From positions 1-42,073 of the forward strand of contig JACQDH010000252.1 in NCBI GenBank assembly GCA_016201215.1: a DNA stretch of 42,073 bases, given 5' to 3'. The notes under the pieces were generated by a model, which had not been told where the DNA came from, made no database searches, and saw nothing but the letters and a program-made list of their open reading frames with translations. The stretch is from Acidobacteriota bacterium. GTDB taxonomy: Bacteria > Acidobacteriota > Terriglobia > Acidiferrales > UBA7541. Made by a program: the position numbers and the translations under genes. Positions within the stretch are counted from its first letter, which is position 1; the number at the start of each line of letters is the position of its first letter. Below, piece by piece: positions 10,456-16,666 of the stretch.

Positions 10456-12120
10456 TTACACCTCGAGGATGACGGGGAGAATCAGCGGGCGCTTCGAGGT
10501 TTGCTTGTTCAGATAACGCTTCAGGTCCACGCGGATCTTTTCCTTGATGACGCTCCAGTCAGTTTTCTCTTCGGAGTTGGACTGCTCGACGGTGCGCAGC
10601 ACGACGTCGCGCGCCCCGAGGAGGATTTCCTGGCCGTCGTCCGAGGGCAGGAAGCCGCGCGTGACGATCTCCGGCAGTGACTCCATCCGTCCGGTGTGCT
10701 TGTCGATGGCGATAATGGGCACCACCACGCCGTCTTCCGACAGGTGCTTGCGGTCGCGGATCACCACCTCTTCGATCTCTTCGAGCGAGCCGGAATCCAC
10801 GCACACGCGCCCGGCCGTGACCGGCTCGCGGCGGAACGCCCCCTCCGGGGTGAATTCGATGGGCTGGCCGTCTTCGAGCAGCAGGATCTCGCCGGAAACC
10901 GCCCCCACTTGATGCGCTAGGCCGGCGTGGCGGAACAGTTGCCGGTATTCGCCGTGGATGGGGATGAAGTAGCGCGGGCGCACCAGATTCAGCAGCATCT
11001 TCTGTTCTTCCTGGCTGGCGTGGCCGGAGACGTGAATGATGCCGCTGTCATTGTCGTAGTAAACCAGGGCGCGGCGCCGCAGCATGTGGTCGAGCATGCG
11101 GAAAATGGCCTTCTCGTTGCCGGGAATGATGCGCGCGGAGAGGATGACCGTGTCGTTTTCTTCGACGCTCAGCAACCGATGGTTGTCCACGGCGATGCGC
11201 GACAGTGAGGACATCGGCTCGGCTTGGCTTCCGCTGGCCAGCACGACGAGCTTTTTGGGGTCAAACGACTTCAAATCCTGCGGCCGCACCACCATGCCGT
11301 CGGGGATGTGCAGCCGCTCGAGCCCGTGCGCGATTTCGACGTTGTCCACCATGCTGCGCCCGACAAAGCCGACCTTGCGGCCCACCGCCGCAGCGATATC
11401 CACCACCGACTGAATGCGGGGAATCGAGGAGGCAAAACACGATACCAGCACCCGGCGCGGCGCCGTACGGCAGAGCTCCTCGAGGCGCGTCCACACCGCT
11501 CGCTCCGAAGGCGTGTAGCCCGGGCGCTCGACGTTGGTGCTGTCGCTGAACAGCGCCAGCACTCCTTCCTGGCCGTAGCGCGCAAAGGCGTGCAGGTCGA
11601 ACGGCTGCCCGTCCATCGGCGTCGGATCCATTTTGAAGTCGCCCGAGTGGATGATGATGCCGAGTGGCGTGCGCACCGCCAGCGCCACGCAGTCAATCGT
11701 GCTGTGCGTGACGTAGATGAACTCGATCTCAAACGGGCCGAGCCCCACCTTCCGCCCCGCCGCCACCTCGAGCAGCATCGCCTTCTCGAGCAGGCCGTGC
11801 CCCTCCAGCCGCTTGCGCACCAGCGCCAGGGTGAAGCGCGTGCCGTAGATGGGCACGTTCAGATCGCTCAGGATGTAGGGCAGCGCGCCGATGTGGTCCT
11901 CGTGGCCGTGCGTCAGCACGATGGCGCGCACCGCGGCGCGGTTCTGCTTCAGATAGGCGATGTCGGGAATGACGATGTCCACGCCGAGCAGCTCGGCCTC
12001 GGGGAACATCATGCCGGCATCAATGACGATGATGTCGTCGCCGTAGCGGAGGGCGAGCATGTTCATGCCGAACTCGCCCAACCCGCCCAGCGGAATGGCC
12101 CACAGAGAAGGTGTGCTCAA
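10456..12120 (-). CDS. rnj: Ribonuclease J
   Basis: A 554-residue metallo-beta-lactamase/beta-CASP ribonuclease with 5'-3' exonuclease and endonuclease activity in mRNA decay and rRNA processing. The metal site is seen in LTHGHEDHIGAL (H71, H73, D75, H76), HSTIDC, and HSGDFKMDPTP. The beta-CASP part contains FSDSTNVERPGYTPSE and SGHASQEEQKMLL, followed by PRYFIPIHGEYRQL. Length is typical (550-560). The start is a TTG at 12118-12120. It gives the standard N-terminus LWAIPLGGLGEFGMNM, and the same TTG is preserved at the matching place in a decayed copy of this region at 12.6 kb. GTGGAGG lies 13 bases upstream, which is somewhat far. It is the first gene of the operon that continues with rimI, uppP and ftsK. 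Confidence 0.95.
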   Translation of the reverse strand: MSTPSLWAIPLGGLGEFGMNMLALRYGDDIIVIDAGMMFPEAELLGVDIVIPDIAYLKQNRAAVRAIVLTHGHEDHIGALPYILSDLNVPIYGTRFTLALVRKRLEGHGLLEKAMLLEVAAGRKVGLGPFEIEFIYVTHSTIDCVALAVRTPLGIIIHSGDFKMDPTPMDGQPFDLHAFARYGQEGVLALFSDSTNVERPGYTPSERAVWTRLEELCRTAPRRVLVSCFASSIPRIQSVVDIAAAVGRKVGFVGRSMVDNVEIAHGLERLHIPDGMVVRPQDLKSFDPKKLVVLASGSQAEPMSSLSRIAVDNHRLLSVEENDTVILSARIIPGNEKAIFRMLDHMLRRRALVYYDNDSGIIHVSGHASQEEQKMLLNLVRPRYFIPIHGEYRQLFRHAGLAHQVGAVSGEILLLEDGQPIEFTPEGAFRREPVTAGRVCVDSGSLEEIEEVVIRDRKHLSEDGVVVPIIAIDKHTGRMESLPEIVTRGFLPSDDGQEILLGARDVVLRTVEQSNSEEKTDWSVIKEKIRVDLKRYLNKQTSKRPLILPVILEV

Positions 12121-12150
12121 TGCGGTGAACCAGCCTCCACCAAACTCCTC

Positions 12151-12159
12151 ATCCTACCA
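12151..12159 (-). promoter_or_regulatory. Extended -10 of the rnj operon
   Basis: TGGTAGGAT on the minus strand, 30 bases upstream of the rnj TTG start. The TG one base before the hexamer makes it an extended -10. The equivalent element TGATAGGAT occurs at the same distance before the rnj-like fragment at 12.6 kb. No clear -35 is seen. Confidence 0.5.
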
Positions 12160-12192
12160 TATGACGCTGCGGTGAAGCGGGAAAGCGTAGAA

Positions 12193-12234
12193 AAGTCAAC
12201 AGTCAACAGTTGAAAGTCAAAAGTTGTACAGTTG
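12193..12234. repeat. AACTGTTGACTGTTGAC-type repeats upstream of rnj
   Basis: Read on the minus strand the stretch carries CAACTGT, CAACTTTTGACTTT, CAACTGTTGACTGTTGACT. These are seven-base units related to those after ftsK at 6703-6748. They lie between the glsB-like gene and the rnj promoter and look non-coding. Confidence 0.6.
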
Positions 12235-12263
12235 CCGAGTGGATGTGTGGAGAGCTGAAACGG

Positions 12264-12521
12264 CTACTTGTTGCCGGCGAACAGACGCGCAATGGCCACC
12301 AGAACCACGGCGCCGACTGTAGCCGCCGCTAGGCTGAACAGGAAACCGCCGCCGAAGATGCCCAGCTTTGAGAAAATCCAGCCGCCGAGCAGCGCTCCGA
12401 TCAGGCCCAGGGATAAGTCTGCGAGGCATCCGAAACCGGCGCCCCGCGTCACCTTGCCTGCCAGCCACCCGGCAATCAGCCCGATCAGAATCCAGGCGAT
12501 CAATGAATGCGAGAATCTCAC
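12264..12521 (-). CDS. GlsB/YeaQ/YmgE-family small membrane protein
   Basis: An 85-residue protein with three hydrophobic helices rich in glycine: IAWILIGLIAGWLAGKV, then LSLGLIGALLGGWIFSKLGI, then FLFSLAAATVGAVVLVAIAR. This is the pattern of the GlsB/YeaQ/YmgE (transglycosylase-associated) family. These are inner-membrane proteins often linked to stress responses, but with no proven biochemical activity. The start is uncertain: the GTG at 12519-12521 lies one base after the stop of a small upstream frame, so coupled translation is possible; a TTG at 12501-12503, six codons in, would give the more usual short N-terminus. The region just upstream is a decayed copy of the rnj start. Confidence 0.8.
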   Translation of the reverse strand: MRFSHSLIAWILIGLIAGWLAGKVTRGAGFGCLADLSLGLIGALLGGWIFSKLGIFGGGFLFSLAAATVGAVVLVAIARLFAGNK

Positions 12522-12522
12522 C

Positions 12523-12639
12523 TCAAATCCCCACGCCGTGATTCTTTTCCGAGCCGATACCCCAGCCGAGGGTGATCACGTTCACGCCAAACTCGCCCAG
12601 CCCGCCGAGTTGAAGGGCCGCAAGGAAAGCTTCGCCCAA
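12523..12639 (-). pseudogene. Decayed copy of the rnj 5' end (38-codon reading frame)
   Basis: A frame starting at the TTG at 12637-12639 reads MGEAFLAALQLGGLGEFGVN, continues VITLGWGIGS, and stops at 12523. LGGLGEFGxNxxxL is the characteristic N-terminus of ribonuclease J and matches the functional rnj at 10456-12120. The DNA matches without gaps from the -10 box (TGRTAGGATG), through the 29 bases to the TTG, through 13 codons to GGCGGG and beyond. The rest of the gene is missing. It is most simply the stump of a tandem second rnj whose body was lost. Whether the short peptide is still translated, as a leader for the glsB-like gene one base downstream, cannot be decided from sequence. Confidence 0.6.
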
Positions 12640-12669
12640 CGCGCTCTGTGTCCCTCCACTCGACCCGGC

Positions 12670-12678
12670 ATCCTATCA
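12670..12678 (-). promoter_or_regulatory. Extended -10 of the rnj-like fragment and probably of the glsB-like gene
   Basis: TGATAGGAT on the minus strand corresponds to TGGTAGGAT before rnj, at the same distance from the TTG. It is the only visible promoter-like element upstream of the glsB-like gene, so the duplicated promoter may now serve that gene. Confidence 0.4.
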
Positions 12679-12777
12679 CAACCATTTGTGGCGGAACGTG
12701 GGAACGGTGGGACAGCCGTTCTTGCTTGTCCCGGTGAAAAAGGGCCCCGCGACAATGCCGATCCCACTGCGAAGATG

Positions 12778-13857
12778 CTAGGCCGGCTGTTGCATGGTCA
12801 TGCAGTGCAATGTCCCCAGGCCGAGCACCAGGTCGCGGCAGCCGACCCCGATCACTTCACGATCGGGGAATAAGGCCGCCAGGGTATTGAGTCCCACGCG
12901 ATCGCTCGGATCATCAAACGTGGGCACAAGCACCAGCTTGTTGGCGATATAAAAGTTGGCATAGCTTGCTGGGAGCCGTTGGCCGTTGAAGCACACCGGC
13001 TCCGGCATCGGCAGCGTTTCCACGCGCAGCGGCCGCCCGTCCTGATCCTTCATCTCTCGAAGGAGGGCGAGGTTCTCCTGGAGGGGCTCGTAGTTCACGT
13101 CTGCGTTGTTGGGTTCGACGACGGCCACCAACGTGTTCGAGTTCACAAATCGCGCCAAGTCGTCCACGTGGCCGTGCGTGTCGTCACCAGCGATGCCGTT
13201 CTTAAGCCACAGGACGTGCGCGACCCCGAGGTAGTCGAAGAGCACTTTGTGCAGATCCTCGCGTCCGAACCCCGGGTTCCGCGCCTGCACTGGGCTCAGC
13301 AAACATTCTTCGGTGGTCAGCAGGGTGCCCTTTCCGTTGACGTCGATGCTCCCGCCTTCCAGCACGACGCGCCGCCCCTGGTGCGTGGGCTCCCACAGCG
13401 GCAGCTTGAATCTCAGCGCGAGCTTTCGCGTCACTGCGTCGTCGTATTCCCAGTTGTCGTACTTGGCCCAGCCCGTGAAGCGCCAGTTGACGATGGCCGA
13501 GTGGCCCTCGCTGTTCTTCACGAAAACGGGTCCGTAGTCGCGCGTCCAGCTCCGATTCGTCCGCGCATGGAAGAAATCGACCGCCTGGAGGTCCGCAGCG
13601 CTCTTGCGAAGCACACGCCGCGCTTTCTCCTCAGCGTCTCGGCTCGCCACGAGGATGCAGACCCGCTCCACGCGCGCCAGCCGGCGCACGATCTCTCCGT
13701 ACACCCACGGAATCGGTGCGAACTTCCCGGGCCAATCTGTCTTTTCATGGGGCCAGGCCAGCCAGGTTGCCTGGTGAGGCTCCCACTCGGCCGGCAGGCG
13801 ATATCCGAGCTGACAAGGGGTGGAACGCGGTGCGCGATAGGGACTCAATCCAGCCAT
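12778..13857 (-). CDS. aguA: Agmatine deiminase
   Basis: This 359-residue enzyme of the guanidino-group-modifying (penta-propeller) superfamily hydrolyses agmatine to N-carbamoylputrescine and ammonia. Family features are YRLPAEWEPHQATWLAWPH at residue 19, RSWTRDYGPVFVKN near 100, VLEGGSIDVNGKGTLLTTEE near 165, GDDTHGHVDDLARF (catalytic His and Asp) near 225, and LGTLHCMTMQQP at the end with the nucleophile Cys352. The C-terminal motif is usually GxxNIHCITQQ or similar, so LGTLHCMTMQQ is a mild variant that keeps H and C. It overlaps the end of aguB by 13 bases, so the two are translated together. The product of the reaction is the substrate of AguB next to it. Confidence 0.92.
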   Translation of the reverse strand: MAGLSPYRAPRSTPCQLGYRLPAEWEPHQATWLAWPHEKTDWPGKFAPIPWVYGEIVRRLARVERVCILVASRDAEEKARRVLRKSAADLQAVDFFHARTNRSWTRDYGPVFVKNSEGHSAIVNWRFTGWAKYDNWEYDDAVTRKLALRFKLPLWEPTHQGRRVVLEGGSIDVNGKGTLLTTEECLLSPVQARNPGFGREDLHKVLFDYLGVAHVLWLKNGIAGDDTHGHVDDLARFVNSNTLVAVVEPNNADVNYEPLQENLALLREMKDQDGRPLRVETLPMPEPVCFNGQRLPASYANFYIANKLVLVPTFDDPSDRVGLNTLAALFPDREVIGVGCRDLVLGLGTLHCMTMQQPA

Positions 13858-14723
13858 CGCTCCAGCAGGGCAGAGTAGGCGTCAATGCGGCGGTCCCGCA
13901 GGAACGGCCAGTTGCGGCGGACTTCCTCCATGCGGCGTGGATCGCATTCGACGACGAGCGTCTCCTCGTTGGTGGTGGAAGCTTCGGCAAGAAGTTGCCC
14001 GAAGGGATCCGCGGCGAACGAGGCCCCCCAAAATTCCAGGCTGTTGTCTGCGGGCCCCTCGAAGCCGACGCGATTCACCACGGCCACAAAGATGCCGTTG
14101 GCAATGGCGTGCGCGCGCTGGATCGTGCGCCAGGCATCGAGTTGCGCAGCGCCCTGCTGCAGTTTTTCCGAAGGGTGCCAGCCGATACTGGTCGGATACA
14201 ACAGGATGTTGGCTCCCCGCAGGCTCGCCAGGCGCGCGCCCTCAGGGTACCACTGGTCCCAGCACACCAGCACGCCGATGCGGCCATAGCGGGTGTCAAA
14301 GTTGGGGAACCCCAGATCCCCCGGCGTGAAGTAGAACTTCTCGTAGTAGAGCGGGTCGTCCGGGATGTGCATCTTGCGGTAGAGCCCCAGCAGAGAGCCG
14401 TCGGCGTCGATTACGATGGCCGTGTTGTGATACAGGCCTGGCGCGCGGCGTTCAAACACCGGAGCCACAATCACAACCTGGAGCTCACGCGCCAGCGGGG
14501 TCAAGGCATTCGTCGTCGGCCCGGGAATTGGCTCCGCCAGTGCAAACAACTCCGCGTTCTCCTCGCGGCAAAGATACTGGGTGCGAAAAAGCTCTTGCAG
14601 GCAGATGATCTGGGCGCCCCGGCTGGCTGCTTCGCGGATCCGCGCCATCGCCTTCGACAGGTTCTCGTCCGGGCGGGTGGAGCACTTCATTTGGACGAGA
14701 CCGATGCTGAACTTCTCGTTCAT
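13845..14723 (-). CDS. aguB: N-carbamoylputrescine amidase
   Basis: A 292-residue nitrilase-superfamily amidase that converts N-carbamoylputrescine to putrescine, CO2 and ammonia. The Glu-Lys-Cys triad is visible: E44 in IICLQELFRTQYLC, K117 in GLYRKMHIPDDPLYYEKFYF, and C154 in VLVCWDQWYPEGAR. The stretches around LFRTQY and HIPDDP are typical of AguB rather than other nitrilases. The start is placed at the ATG at 14721-14723 (MNEKFSIGLVQM). An in-frame ATG three codons upstream lies inside a good -10 box, so it would not be transcribed. With that -10 the message would begin at or next to the chosen ATG. It is first in a two-gene unit with aguA and diverges from the deoxyhypusine synthase-like gene. 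Confidence 0.93.
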   Translation of the reverse strand: MNEKFSIGLVQMKCSTRPDENLSKAMARIREAASRGAQIICLQELFRTQYLCREENAELFALAEPIPGPTTNALTPLARELQVVIVAPVFERRAPGLYHNTAIVIDADGSLLGLYRKMHIPDDPLYYEKFYFTPGDLGFPNFDTRYGRIGVLVCWDQWYPEGARLASLRGANILLYPTSIGWHPSEKLQQGAAQLDAWRTIQRAHAIANGIFVAVVNRVGFEGPADNSLEFWGASFAADPFGQLLAEASTTNEETLVVECDPRRMEEVRRNWPFLRDRRIDAYSALLERWLD

Positions 14724-14730
14724 AGGCCGC

Positions 14731-14739
14731 ATACTATCA
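14731..14739 (-). promoter_or_regulatory. Extended -10 before aguB (leaderless start)
   Basis: TGATAGTAT on the minus strand ends seven bases before the ATG of aguB (spacer GCGGCCT). With the usual distance from -10 to +1, transcription begins at the start codon. No Shine-Dalgarno sequence fits between, which agrees with a leaderless message. Confidence 0.55.
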
Positions 14740-14927
14740 TTTCTTCCTGCGCTGCGAAGAATTCCCCCGGACGGATTGGCCTCGGAAAGCGCGCAGGGGC
14801 TGCCCCGCTCTTCTCGGAGGATCGCCTGAGGCTCCCGGAAGCAGTGGCGACGCGAAGCTCCTCATCGAATGACCGCTGGGAAACGCGTGTGTAAGTGACT
14901 TTCCTCTTTGCTTTGCGTGCGAGTTTG

Positions 14928-14933
14928 TACTAT
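14928..14933 (+). promoter_or_regulatory. Possible -10 of the deoxyhypusine synthase-like gene
   Basis: TACTAT on the plus strand, with a likely start of transcription near 14940, about 60 bases before the ATG. The -35 region is not convincing. Confidence 0.3.
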
Positions 14934-15001
14934 CAATAGTGGCGCGACGCAATCGAAAAACGCGCGCACGCGCATTCTCGACCGAGGCAAGAGGAGATTG
15001 G

Positions 15002-16102
15002 ATGGCCAAGAAAATGGGAGTCACCGGGCGCGACCTGCATGACCCGGTTCGGGATCGGCTGACGCCGATTTATCCGCTGGATCTTTCCAAGGTGCGCACG
15101 GTGGATGAGCTGGTGCGGGCGATGGGCCGCACGGCGTTTACCGGCCGGCAGGTTGGCGATGCCGCCGACGTGCTGGAAGCCATGGCGCGCGACAAGGATT
15201 GTTTCGTCGTGCTGACCCTTTCCGGCGCGATGACCGTGGCCAAAATGGGCCTGATCTTCTGCGACCTGATCGAATCGGGCGTGGCCAACGCCGTCGTCTC
15301 CACCGGCGCGCTGATGGCACACGGGCTGGTGGAAGCTACGGGCCGCTCGCACTTTCGCTACGACGCAAAGATGGACGACCGCGAGCTGTTCCACGCCGGT
15401 TACAACCGCGTTTATGACTCGCTCGAGCCCGAAGTCAACCTCGACACCGTCGAGCGGGTGGTGCAGGGAGTCTTTTCGGAGTGGGACGCCAACGAAACGC
15501 TGTCCAGTTGGGAGCTTCATCATCGCATCGGCGAGTACCTCAGCCGGCACGCCCCTGGGCGGGGCATCCTGAAGTCGGCGCTCGAACACGGCGTGCCGGT
15601 TTATGTGCCGGCGTTCACCGATTCGGAGCTGGGCATCGACTTCGCGCTGCACAAGAAGGCTCGGCTGCGCGCCGGCCGCCCCATGCTGCGTTACGACCCC
15701 TACGAAGACTTCGAGTACTTCGCCGAACTCATGCTGGGCGCAAAGAAGATGGGCATCTTCACGATTGGCGGCGGCGTGCCGCGCAACTGGTCGCAGCAGT
15801 TCGGCGTCTATGCCGAGTTGCTCGCGCGCCGCGGCTACGAAAAGCTGCCCCTCAAGCGCTACCACTACGGCGTGCGCATCTGTCCCGAGCCGGTGCACTG
15901 GGGCGGGCTTTCCGGCAGCACGTATTCCGAGGCGGTCTCCTGGGGCAAGTTCGTGCCGCCGGAGGAAGGCGGGCGCTTCGCTGAGGTGCTCGACGATGCC
16001 ACGGTCGCGTTGCCGCTGGTGGTTGGCGCGGTCTTCGAGCGGCTCGGCTATTTCCGGGGGCATCGAATTTGCAAAACCAAGAGTAGGAAGTCGAAGAAGT
16101 GA
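15002..16102 (+). CDS. Deoxyhypusine synthase-like protein without the catalytic lysine
   Basis: A 366-residue member of the deoxyhypusine synthase fold. Shared features are LTLSGAMTVAKMGLIFCDLI near residue 71, VPAFTDSELGIDFALHKKA near 202, FTIGGGVPRNW near 253, and SEAVSWGKF near 309, part of the NAD site. In true deoxyhypusine synthase the sequence GGGVVKHH carries the lysine that forms the covalent enzyme-aminobutyl intermediate; here it is GGGVPRNW, with Arg261 at that place. The protein is therefore of the bacterial 'DHS-like' group, and bacteria have no eIF5A to modify. The three neighbouring genes make putrescine from arginine, so an NAD-dependent aminoalkyl transfer to or from a small polyamine is the best guess. 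The ATG at 15002 follows AAGAGGAGATTGG, a strong ribosome binding site. Confidence 0.85.
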   Translation: MAKKMGVTGRDLHDPVRDRLTPIYPLDLSKVRTVDELVRAMGRTAFTGRQVGDAADVLEAMARDKDCFVVLTLSGAMTVAKMGLIFCDLIESGVANAVVSTGALMAHGLVEATGRSHFRYDAKMDDRELFHAGYNRVYDSLEPEVNLDTVERVVQGVFSEWDANETLSSWELHHRIGEYLSRHAPGRGILKSALEHGVPVYVPAFTDSELGIDFALHKKARLRAGRPMLRYDPYEDFEYFAELMLGAKKMGIFTIGGGVPRNWSQQFGVYAELLARRGYEKLPLKRYHYGVRICPEPVHWGGLSGSTYSEAVSWGKFVPPEEGGRFAEVLDDATVALPLVVGAVFERLGYFRGHRICKTKSRKSKK

Positions 16103-16108
16103 ACGAGG

Positions 16109-16666
16109 CTAGTCGTCGTCGCTGAGGAGAATGGCCGCGGCCAGCACCGTGCTCCACAGCCCGCGCTTGTCGCCCACGGCGGACTGGGTGATGTTCATCG
16201 TGCGCACGATTTTGTTCGAGATGCGGTAGACCTCCTTTTTCTCATCCCACGAGAGGTCCGGATCAAACTCCACGTTGAGCGTAGTGGCGAGCATCTCGGC
16301 GGCCAGCTCTTCGGCATATTCCCCGGCGACCTCTTCGGTCTCGCCGAAGGAATGGTGCTCGGAGAGATAGCCGTACATGGATTTGTCCGCGGGCAGCGCG
16401 AGCCCGATGCCCGCGGCAATCAGCCGGTGCGGCTCGCGCGTGGAGTTCTCGCTGATCACGGTGAAGGCCACCTGGCCGGGCTTGATGTGCTTCAGACCTT
16501 CGCTGCGCGAAATCAATTTGCAGTTGGGCGGGAAAATTGAAGAGACGCGGACGATGTTACACGCGGCGATGCCGGCGTTGCGCAGGGCCAGCTCAAAGCT
16601 GGAGAGCCGCTCGCGATGTTTGCCGACGCCCTTGGTGAGGAAGATCTTCTTCGCGACGAAGGCCAT
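16109..16666 (-). CDS. pdaD: Pyruvoyl-dependent arginine decarboxylase
   Basis: A 185-residue proenzyme of the PvlArgDC family, which turns arginine into agmatine and CO2. It is made as one chain that cleaves itself, and the serine at the new N-terminus becomes the pyruvoyl cofactor. The site is seen in [12 protein letters not shown]: cleavage is expected between Ser42 and Ser43. Further family features are [19 protein letters not shown], the glutamate in [20 protein letters not shown], and [18 protein letters not shown]. It converges on the deoxyhypusine synthase-like gene with only six bases between the stops and supplies the substrate of agmatine deiminase close by. A GGAGGAGG sequence is 23 bases before the ATG, farther than normal for a ribosome binding site, and no nearer start codon exists. 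Confidence 0.93.

Follow-up and report, generated by a model that had tools for sequence, protein, structure and literature searches.

Sequence alignment confirms that, in a 42,073-nt window from an Acidobacteriota bacterium (assembly GCA_016201215.1, contig JACQDH010000252.1; 3.29 Mb in 268 contigs, completeness 80.55%), the region lying before a small GlsB-like gene is a paralogous copy of the promoter and start region of rnj, the gene for RNase J. The fairly probable explanation is promoter capture by partial duplication of rnj, in which the copied promoter and start signals would now drive glsB. All the genes concerned are on the minus strand, where agd is followed by a 38-codon leader frame, the glsB-like gene and rnj. 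The upstream neighbour agd, read in the same direction (12778-13857), is agmatine deiminase-like (PAD_porph; PF04371, E 4.6e-116), and its closest named relatives are mostly Acidobacteria. It belongs to a polyamine gene set at 12778-16666 that also includes genes for a carbon-nitrogen hydrolase, a pyruvoyl-dependent arginine decarboxylase and, on the opposite strand, a deoxyhypusine synthase family protein. The donor of the copied segment, rnj, occupies 10456-12120 (PF22505, PF17770, PF07521) and starts with TTG. The Transgly_assoc family (PF04226) includes the GlsB/YeaQ/YmgE proteins, and the glsB-like product (12264-12521, GTG start; E 3.6e-10) is a plain member of it, scoring 40.3 bits against a curated cut-off of 25.3; it differs from most relatives in having a shorter N-terminus and start signals derived from rnj. 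Between glsB and the rnj promoter, at 12195-12225, lies a short repeated motif, GTCAACAGTCAACAG, followed by a run of GTTGAAAGTCAAAAGTTG.

For some 150 nt before the glsB-like gene, the leader region aligns with the start of rnj, both read on the minus strand, without a gap. The ungapped local alignment (match +1, mismatch -1) scores 43, with 79 identical positions in 115 columns, bearing out the gap-free likeness from the -10 box past the LGGLGEFG codons that was claimed in the preliminary description. With the TTG codons as anchor, identities upstream are 11/20 (-70 to -50), 11/20 (-50 to -30) and 15/30 (-30 to 0), and those in frame are 18/30 in codons 1-10, 21/24 in the LGGLGEFG codons and 19/27 in codons 19-27. 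Beyond these limits the values are at chance level: 5/18 and 8/18 on the downstream side, and 5/20 and 6/20 further upstream than -70. Because similarity extends from about -70 to codon 27 and drops to chance on both sides, the homologous block, consisting of the rnj promoter, 5' UTR and first 27 codons, is placed at 12559-12709, with approximate edges. A likeness confined to the conserved LGGLGEFG codons would not account for the alignment, given that 62 of the 105 positions outside them are identical and that no other offset reaches this value among the 83,824 compared on both strands of the window (mean 27.5, sd 4.4, maximum 47). The 78 nt before the LGGLGEFG core, taken alone, hold 43 identities against a null maximum of 37. 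The 48 nt upstream of the TTG are weaker (25/48, equalled by 1 of 41,911 offsets on one strand and 1 of 41,913 on the other) and are persuasive only together with the rest of the block. A paralogous promoter and 5' end of rnj are accordingly found directly before glsB and in the same direction, and the alignment upholds the earlier description of this copy as a leader of a Transgly_assoc gene.

The signals within the block are conserved in kind and position. The extended -10 of the copy (TGATAGGAT, 12670-12678) and that of rnj (TGGTAGGAT, 12151-12159) each stand 39 nt before the TTG, with 30 bases between the -10 hexamer and the TTG rather than the 29 first counted. A Shine-Dalgarno-like GGAGG is found at 12653-12657 in the copy and at 12134-12138 in rnj, in both cases 18 nt from the TTG, and the duplex energies with the anti-Shine-Dalgarno sequence are nearly the same (-9.8 and -10.0). 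The 13 nt that separate the GGAGG of rnj from its TTG in the present genome are an unusually long spacing. In 30 of 35 rnj genes of the family a TGnTAnnnT motif lies upstream, usually about 39 nt before the start, and its commonest forms are TGATACGAT and the TGATAGGAT that is present in the copy. Across the family, the extended -10 of rnj resembles TGRTASGAT and precedes the TTG or GTG start by about 39 nt. The alignment of family rnj starts omits eight loci that are duplicates or very short; in it the start codon at the aligned position is TTG in 29 of 35 genes and GTG in four. It is this alignment that backs the TTG start of rnj; the copy, which had been put forward as independent support, adds little, because a paralogue inherits the codon.

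The distribution of the copy was examined by aligning the regions upstream of glsB one by one with a positive control, since a DNA search across the family, with the 5' region of rnj as query, missed the copy even in its own genome and was therefore unusable for absence. Of 67 family loci offered to this test, four were without glsB (L114, L115, L118 and L121); other loci, L139 and L147, stand for the genomes of L114 and L118, and those of L115 and L121 are unrepresented. Four others (L129, L132, L134 and L191) were left out as second loci of genomes already present. The preceding locus search gave no match in 20 of 89 family genomes (some of which have loci from another search), and a short match in G047 was excluded. 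The derived state is absent before the same gene in all 63 other family genomes with a readable upstream region, each a distinct genome aligned over 257-365 nt: the best relative scores 36, which is also the highest score among 1000 shuffles, and the positive control, the copy aligned with its own rnj, reaches 86. The two highest-scoring relatives were considered as possible bearers of the copy and rejected, namely L142 (score 36), where the best match in the whole locus is a gapped stretch, and L119 (score 32), where the strongest match in the whole locus (44) is rnj itself. On these alignments the copy looks private to the present genome. G001, the one further genome of the genus, has glsB and lacks the copy; a search for a remnant there gave a score of 21, reached by 209 of 300 shuffles, and the rnj start aligned with the same region gave a gapped score of 28, reached by 18 of 300 shuffles and taken as chance.

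The genes flanking the copy have long been neighbours. In 14 relatives (one duplicate locus left out) agd lies at most 300 nt upstream of glsB, at distances down to 31 nt, and among 29 distinct relatives with both glsB and rnj visible at the locus, 20 have glsB at most 300 nt upstream of rnj; the order agd-glsB-rnj is therefore old, and since it is common to many relatives, the fragment is taken to have entered the agd-glsB spacer. In G001 no agd is nearby: at its locus L102 (G001:C225:16800-22500) about 1.15 kb separates glsB from rnj, and agd lies outside the 5.7 kb examined, indicating that this neighbourhood has been rearranged.

The preliminary description derived the copy from an intact tandem rnj that had lost its body, and the loss of the body of a complete second rnj, whether a tandem paralogue or an acquired gene, is indeed an ordinary route to truncated paralogues. 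By identity the copy stands closest to its own rnj, though not significantly (82/122 identical positions), with the rnj of G005 close behind (80/122), and a tree of these 122 columns gives a support of 31 for the place of the copy, an AU test rejecting none of three placements, so that an origin older than the genus is compatible with the tree. The remaining evidence makes such a remnant exceedingly improbable. No second rnj was seen in relatives in a DNA search of 41 genomes, 34 of which matched an rnj-glsB query (the rnj match in G022 is split over two contigs), and no rnj body is left behind the copied start, where homology ends at codon 27 and glsB begins 37 nt later. Because relatives show no second rnj and the copy appears private to this genome, a complete tandem rnj is unnecessary, and partial duplication suffices.

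Under promoter capture, some 150 bp with the extended -10, the 5' UTR and its Shine-Dalgarno sequence, the TTG start and 27 codons would have been duplicated, in the same orientation, into the spacer between agd and glsB in the present lineage. A likely route would be a tandem duplication running from just before glsB to codon 27 of rnj, followed by loss of the first glsB; this would place the rnj start directly before a glsB, much as happened to citT in the rnk-citG duplication, and the position of the copy is exactly the one that it would give. Relics of glsB or of the glsB-rnj spacer were sought in 12690-12777, where all scores were within those of shuffles, and as no relic of a first glsB is visible, a direct ectopic copy is equally possible. 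A palindrome-like stretch beside the copy (12706-12724) was considered as a dispersed repeat, and this reading was dropped because the stretch occurs once in the genome at up to three mismatches and a wider search of the spacer found no repeat. In the E. coli long-term evolution experiment (PMC5918244), a tandem duplication placed citT under the rnk promoter, and there, too, a promoter and a truncated 5' frame came to lie before a nearby gene whose complete frame follows. That duplication was recent, kept both citT copies and had a measured effect, whereas the present copy has drifted to 67-69% identity, is followed by the one glsB left and has a putative effect on it.

The copied start opens a frame of 38 codons from TTG to TGA (12523-12639), whose 38 residues gave no match in a Pfam search. 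The preliminary description was right as to its length and its end, with the TGA at 12525-12523, a single G and the GTG of glsB at 12521-12519; its attribution of the whole frame to rnj holds for codons 1-27 and fails for the last 11. Comparison with rnj over 26 aligned codons shows 17 that differ, 13 of them nonsynonymously, with 11, 5 and 6 mismatches at codon positions 1, 2 and 3. The resulting dN of 0.35 and dS of 0.46, which are rough because the stretch is short, may be set beside 0.10 and 0.43 for the same stretch of rnj between the present genome (G000) and G001, and beside 0.165 and 0.73 (dN/dS about 0.22) for glsB between the same two genomes. By this rough measure the 38-codon frame is without purifying selection, unlike glsB, and the figures favour a maintained gene preceded by a fragment that drifts.

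These figures also weigh on the proposal that the frame is translated as a functional leader peptide regulating glsB by coupling or attenuation. In its favour, the TTG retains its good Shine-Dalgarno sequence, and the single base between TGA and GTG is within the short distance that coupling needs (PMC10666635). Nevertheless, purifying selection on the peptide is absent, the peptide is found in none of the relatives examined (0/63), and an open run of 38 codons is by estimate ordinary at high G+C. Single-sequence folding gave RNA structures that are not unusually stable (z -1.57 for 12545-12672 and 0.24 for 12490-12570), and an Rfam search had no match. A regulatory role of the leader peptide thought possible in the preliminary description is thus unsupported, and a functional peptide is very unlikely; most likely the peptide is a passive by-product. 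It is very improbable, slightly more so than a functional peptide in general, that the copied start carries control specific to rnj, such as feedback of RNase J on its own 5' region, with a truncated RNase J leader that is translated and coupled to glsB as the intermediary.

The start of glsB itself differs from that of its relatives, in which it is mostly further upstream, with ATG and a strong Shine-Dalgarno sequence. The median energy in relatives is -9.5 (from the best candidate start in each, a choice that favours the relatives) against -5.5 at the GTG here, and four of the 63 relatives have an even weaker site. The weak site is in line with loss of the native start signals. The GTGAGATTC at the glsB start resembles the ATGCGATTC at the start in G001, and an alternative TTG start at 12503 acquires a Shine-Dalgarno sequence only if long spacing is allowed (energy -9.9 with a 19-nt window and -2.7 with one of 15 nt). 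Termination-reinitiation coupling (PMC10666635) involves a stop and a start within a few bases of each other, as here, so that the distance would be short enough for reinitiation; the usual arrangement there is an overlap of 4 or 1 nt, whereas in the present case one base separates stop and start, a gene fragment that drifts supplies the upstream frame, and any coupling is putative.

The main competing account of the copy is that it is inert debris in the spacer, glsB being transcribed from agd or from another promoter. The copied frame drifts like unselected DNA, no terminator between agd and glsB came up in a scan of 12000-12900, and the agd-glsB gaps of as little as 31 nt suggest co-transcription in relatives; readthrough from agd could drive glsB and counts against promoter capture. 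In the same stretch, a sigma-70 scan that also required a -35 recognised no promoter for the copy or for rnj. However, the same scan recognised no other promoter for glsB, the extended -10 of the copy is intact and, judged by eye from the alignment, nearer to the family consensus than that of rnj, and glsB is itself under selection. An inert relic is therefore possible but rather unlikely. Under promoter capture, the copied segment would have replaced the usual start signals of glsB, and transcription would begin at the copied -10. Ribosomes may initiate at the copied TTG and terminate one base before the GTG, so that translation of glsB may gain from termination-reinitiation, the peptide having no function of its own and at most coupling translation into glsB.

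In a limited search of the literature on promoter capture and duplication, the GlsB family, Acidobacteria RNase J and citT, no mention was found of an rnj start copied before glsB. The 38-codon frame deserves a warning in annotation, for it begins like RNase J and is most likely no gene. Should control specific to rnj be real after all, a small membrane protein would be co-regulated with an RNA-decay enzyme. Overall, the copy is a real, apparently lineage-specific partial duplication with probable promoter capture, an ordinary case of a known process whose effect is local to one genome and which introduces no new kind of system. Its value lies in offering, from nature rather than from laboratory evolution, a readable case of promoter capture through partial duplication; donor and copy are 519 bp apart, measured from TTG to TTG, and dozens of copy-free relatives can serve for comparison.
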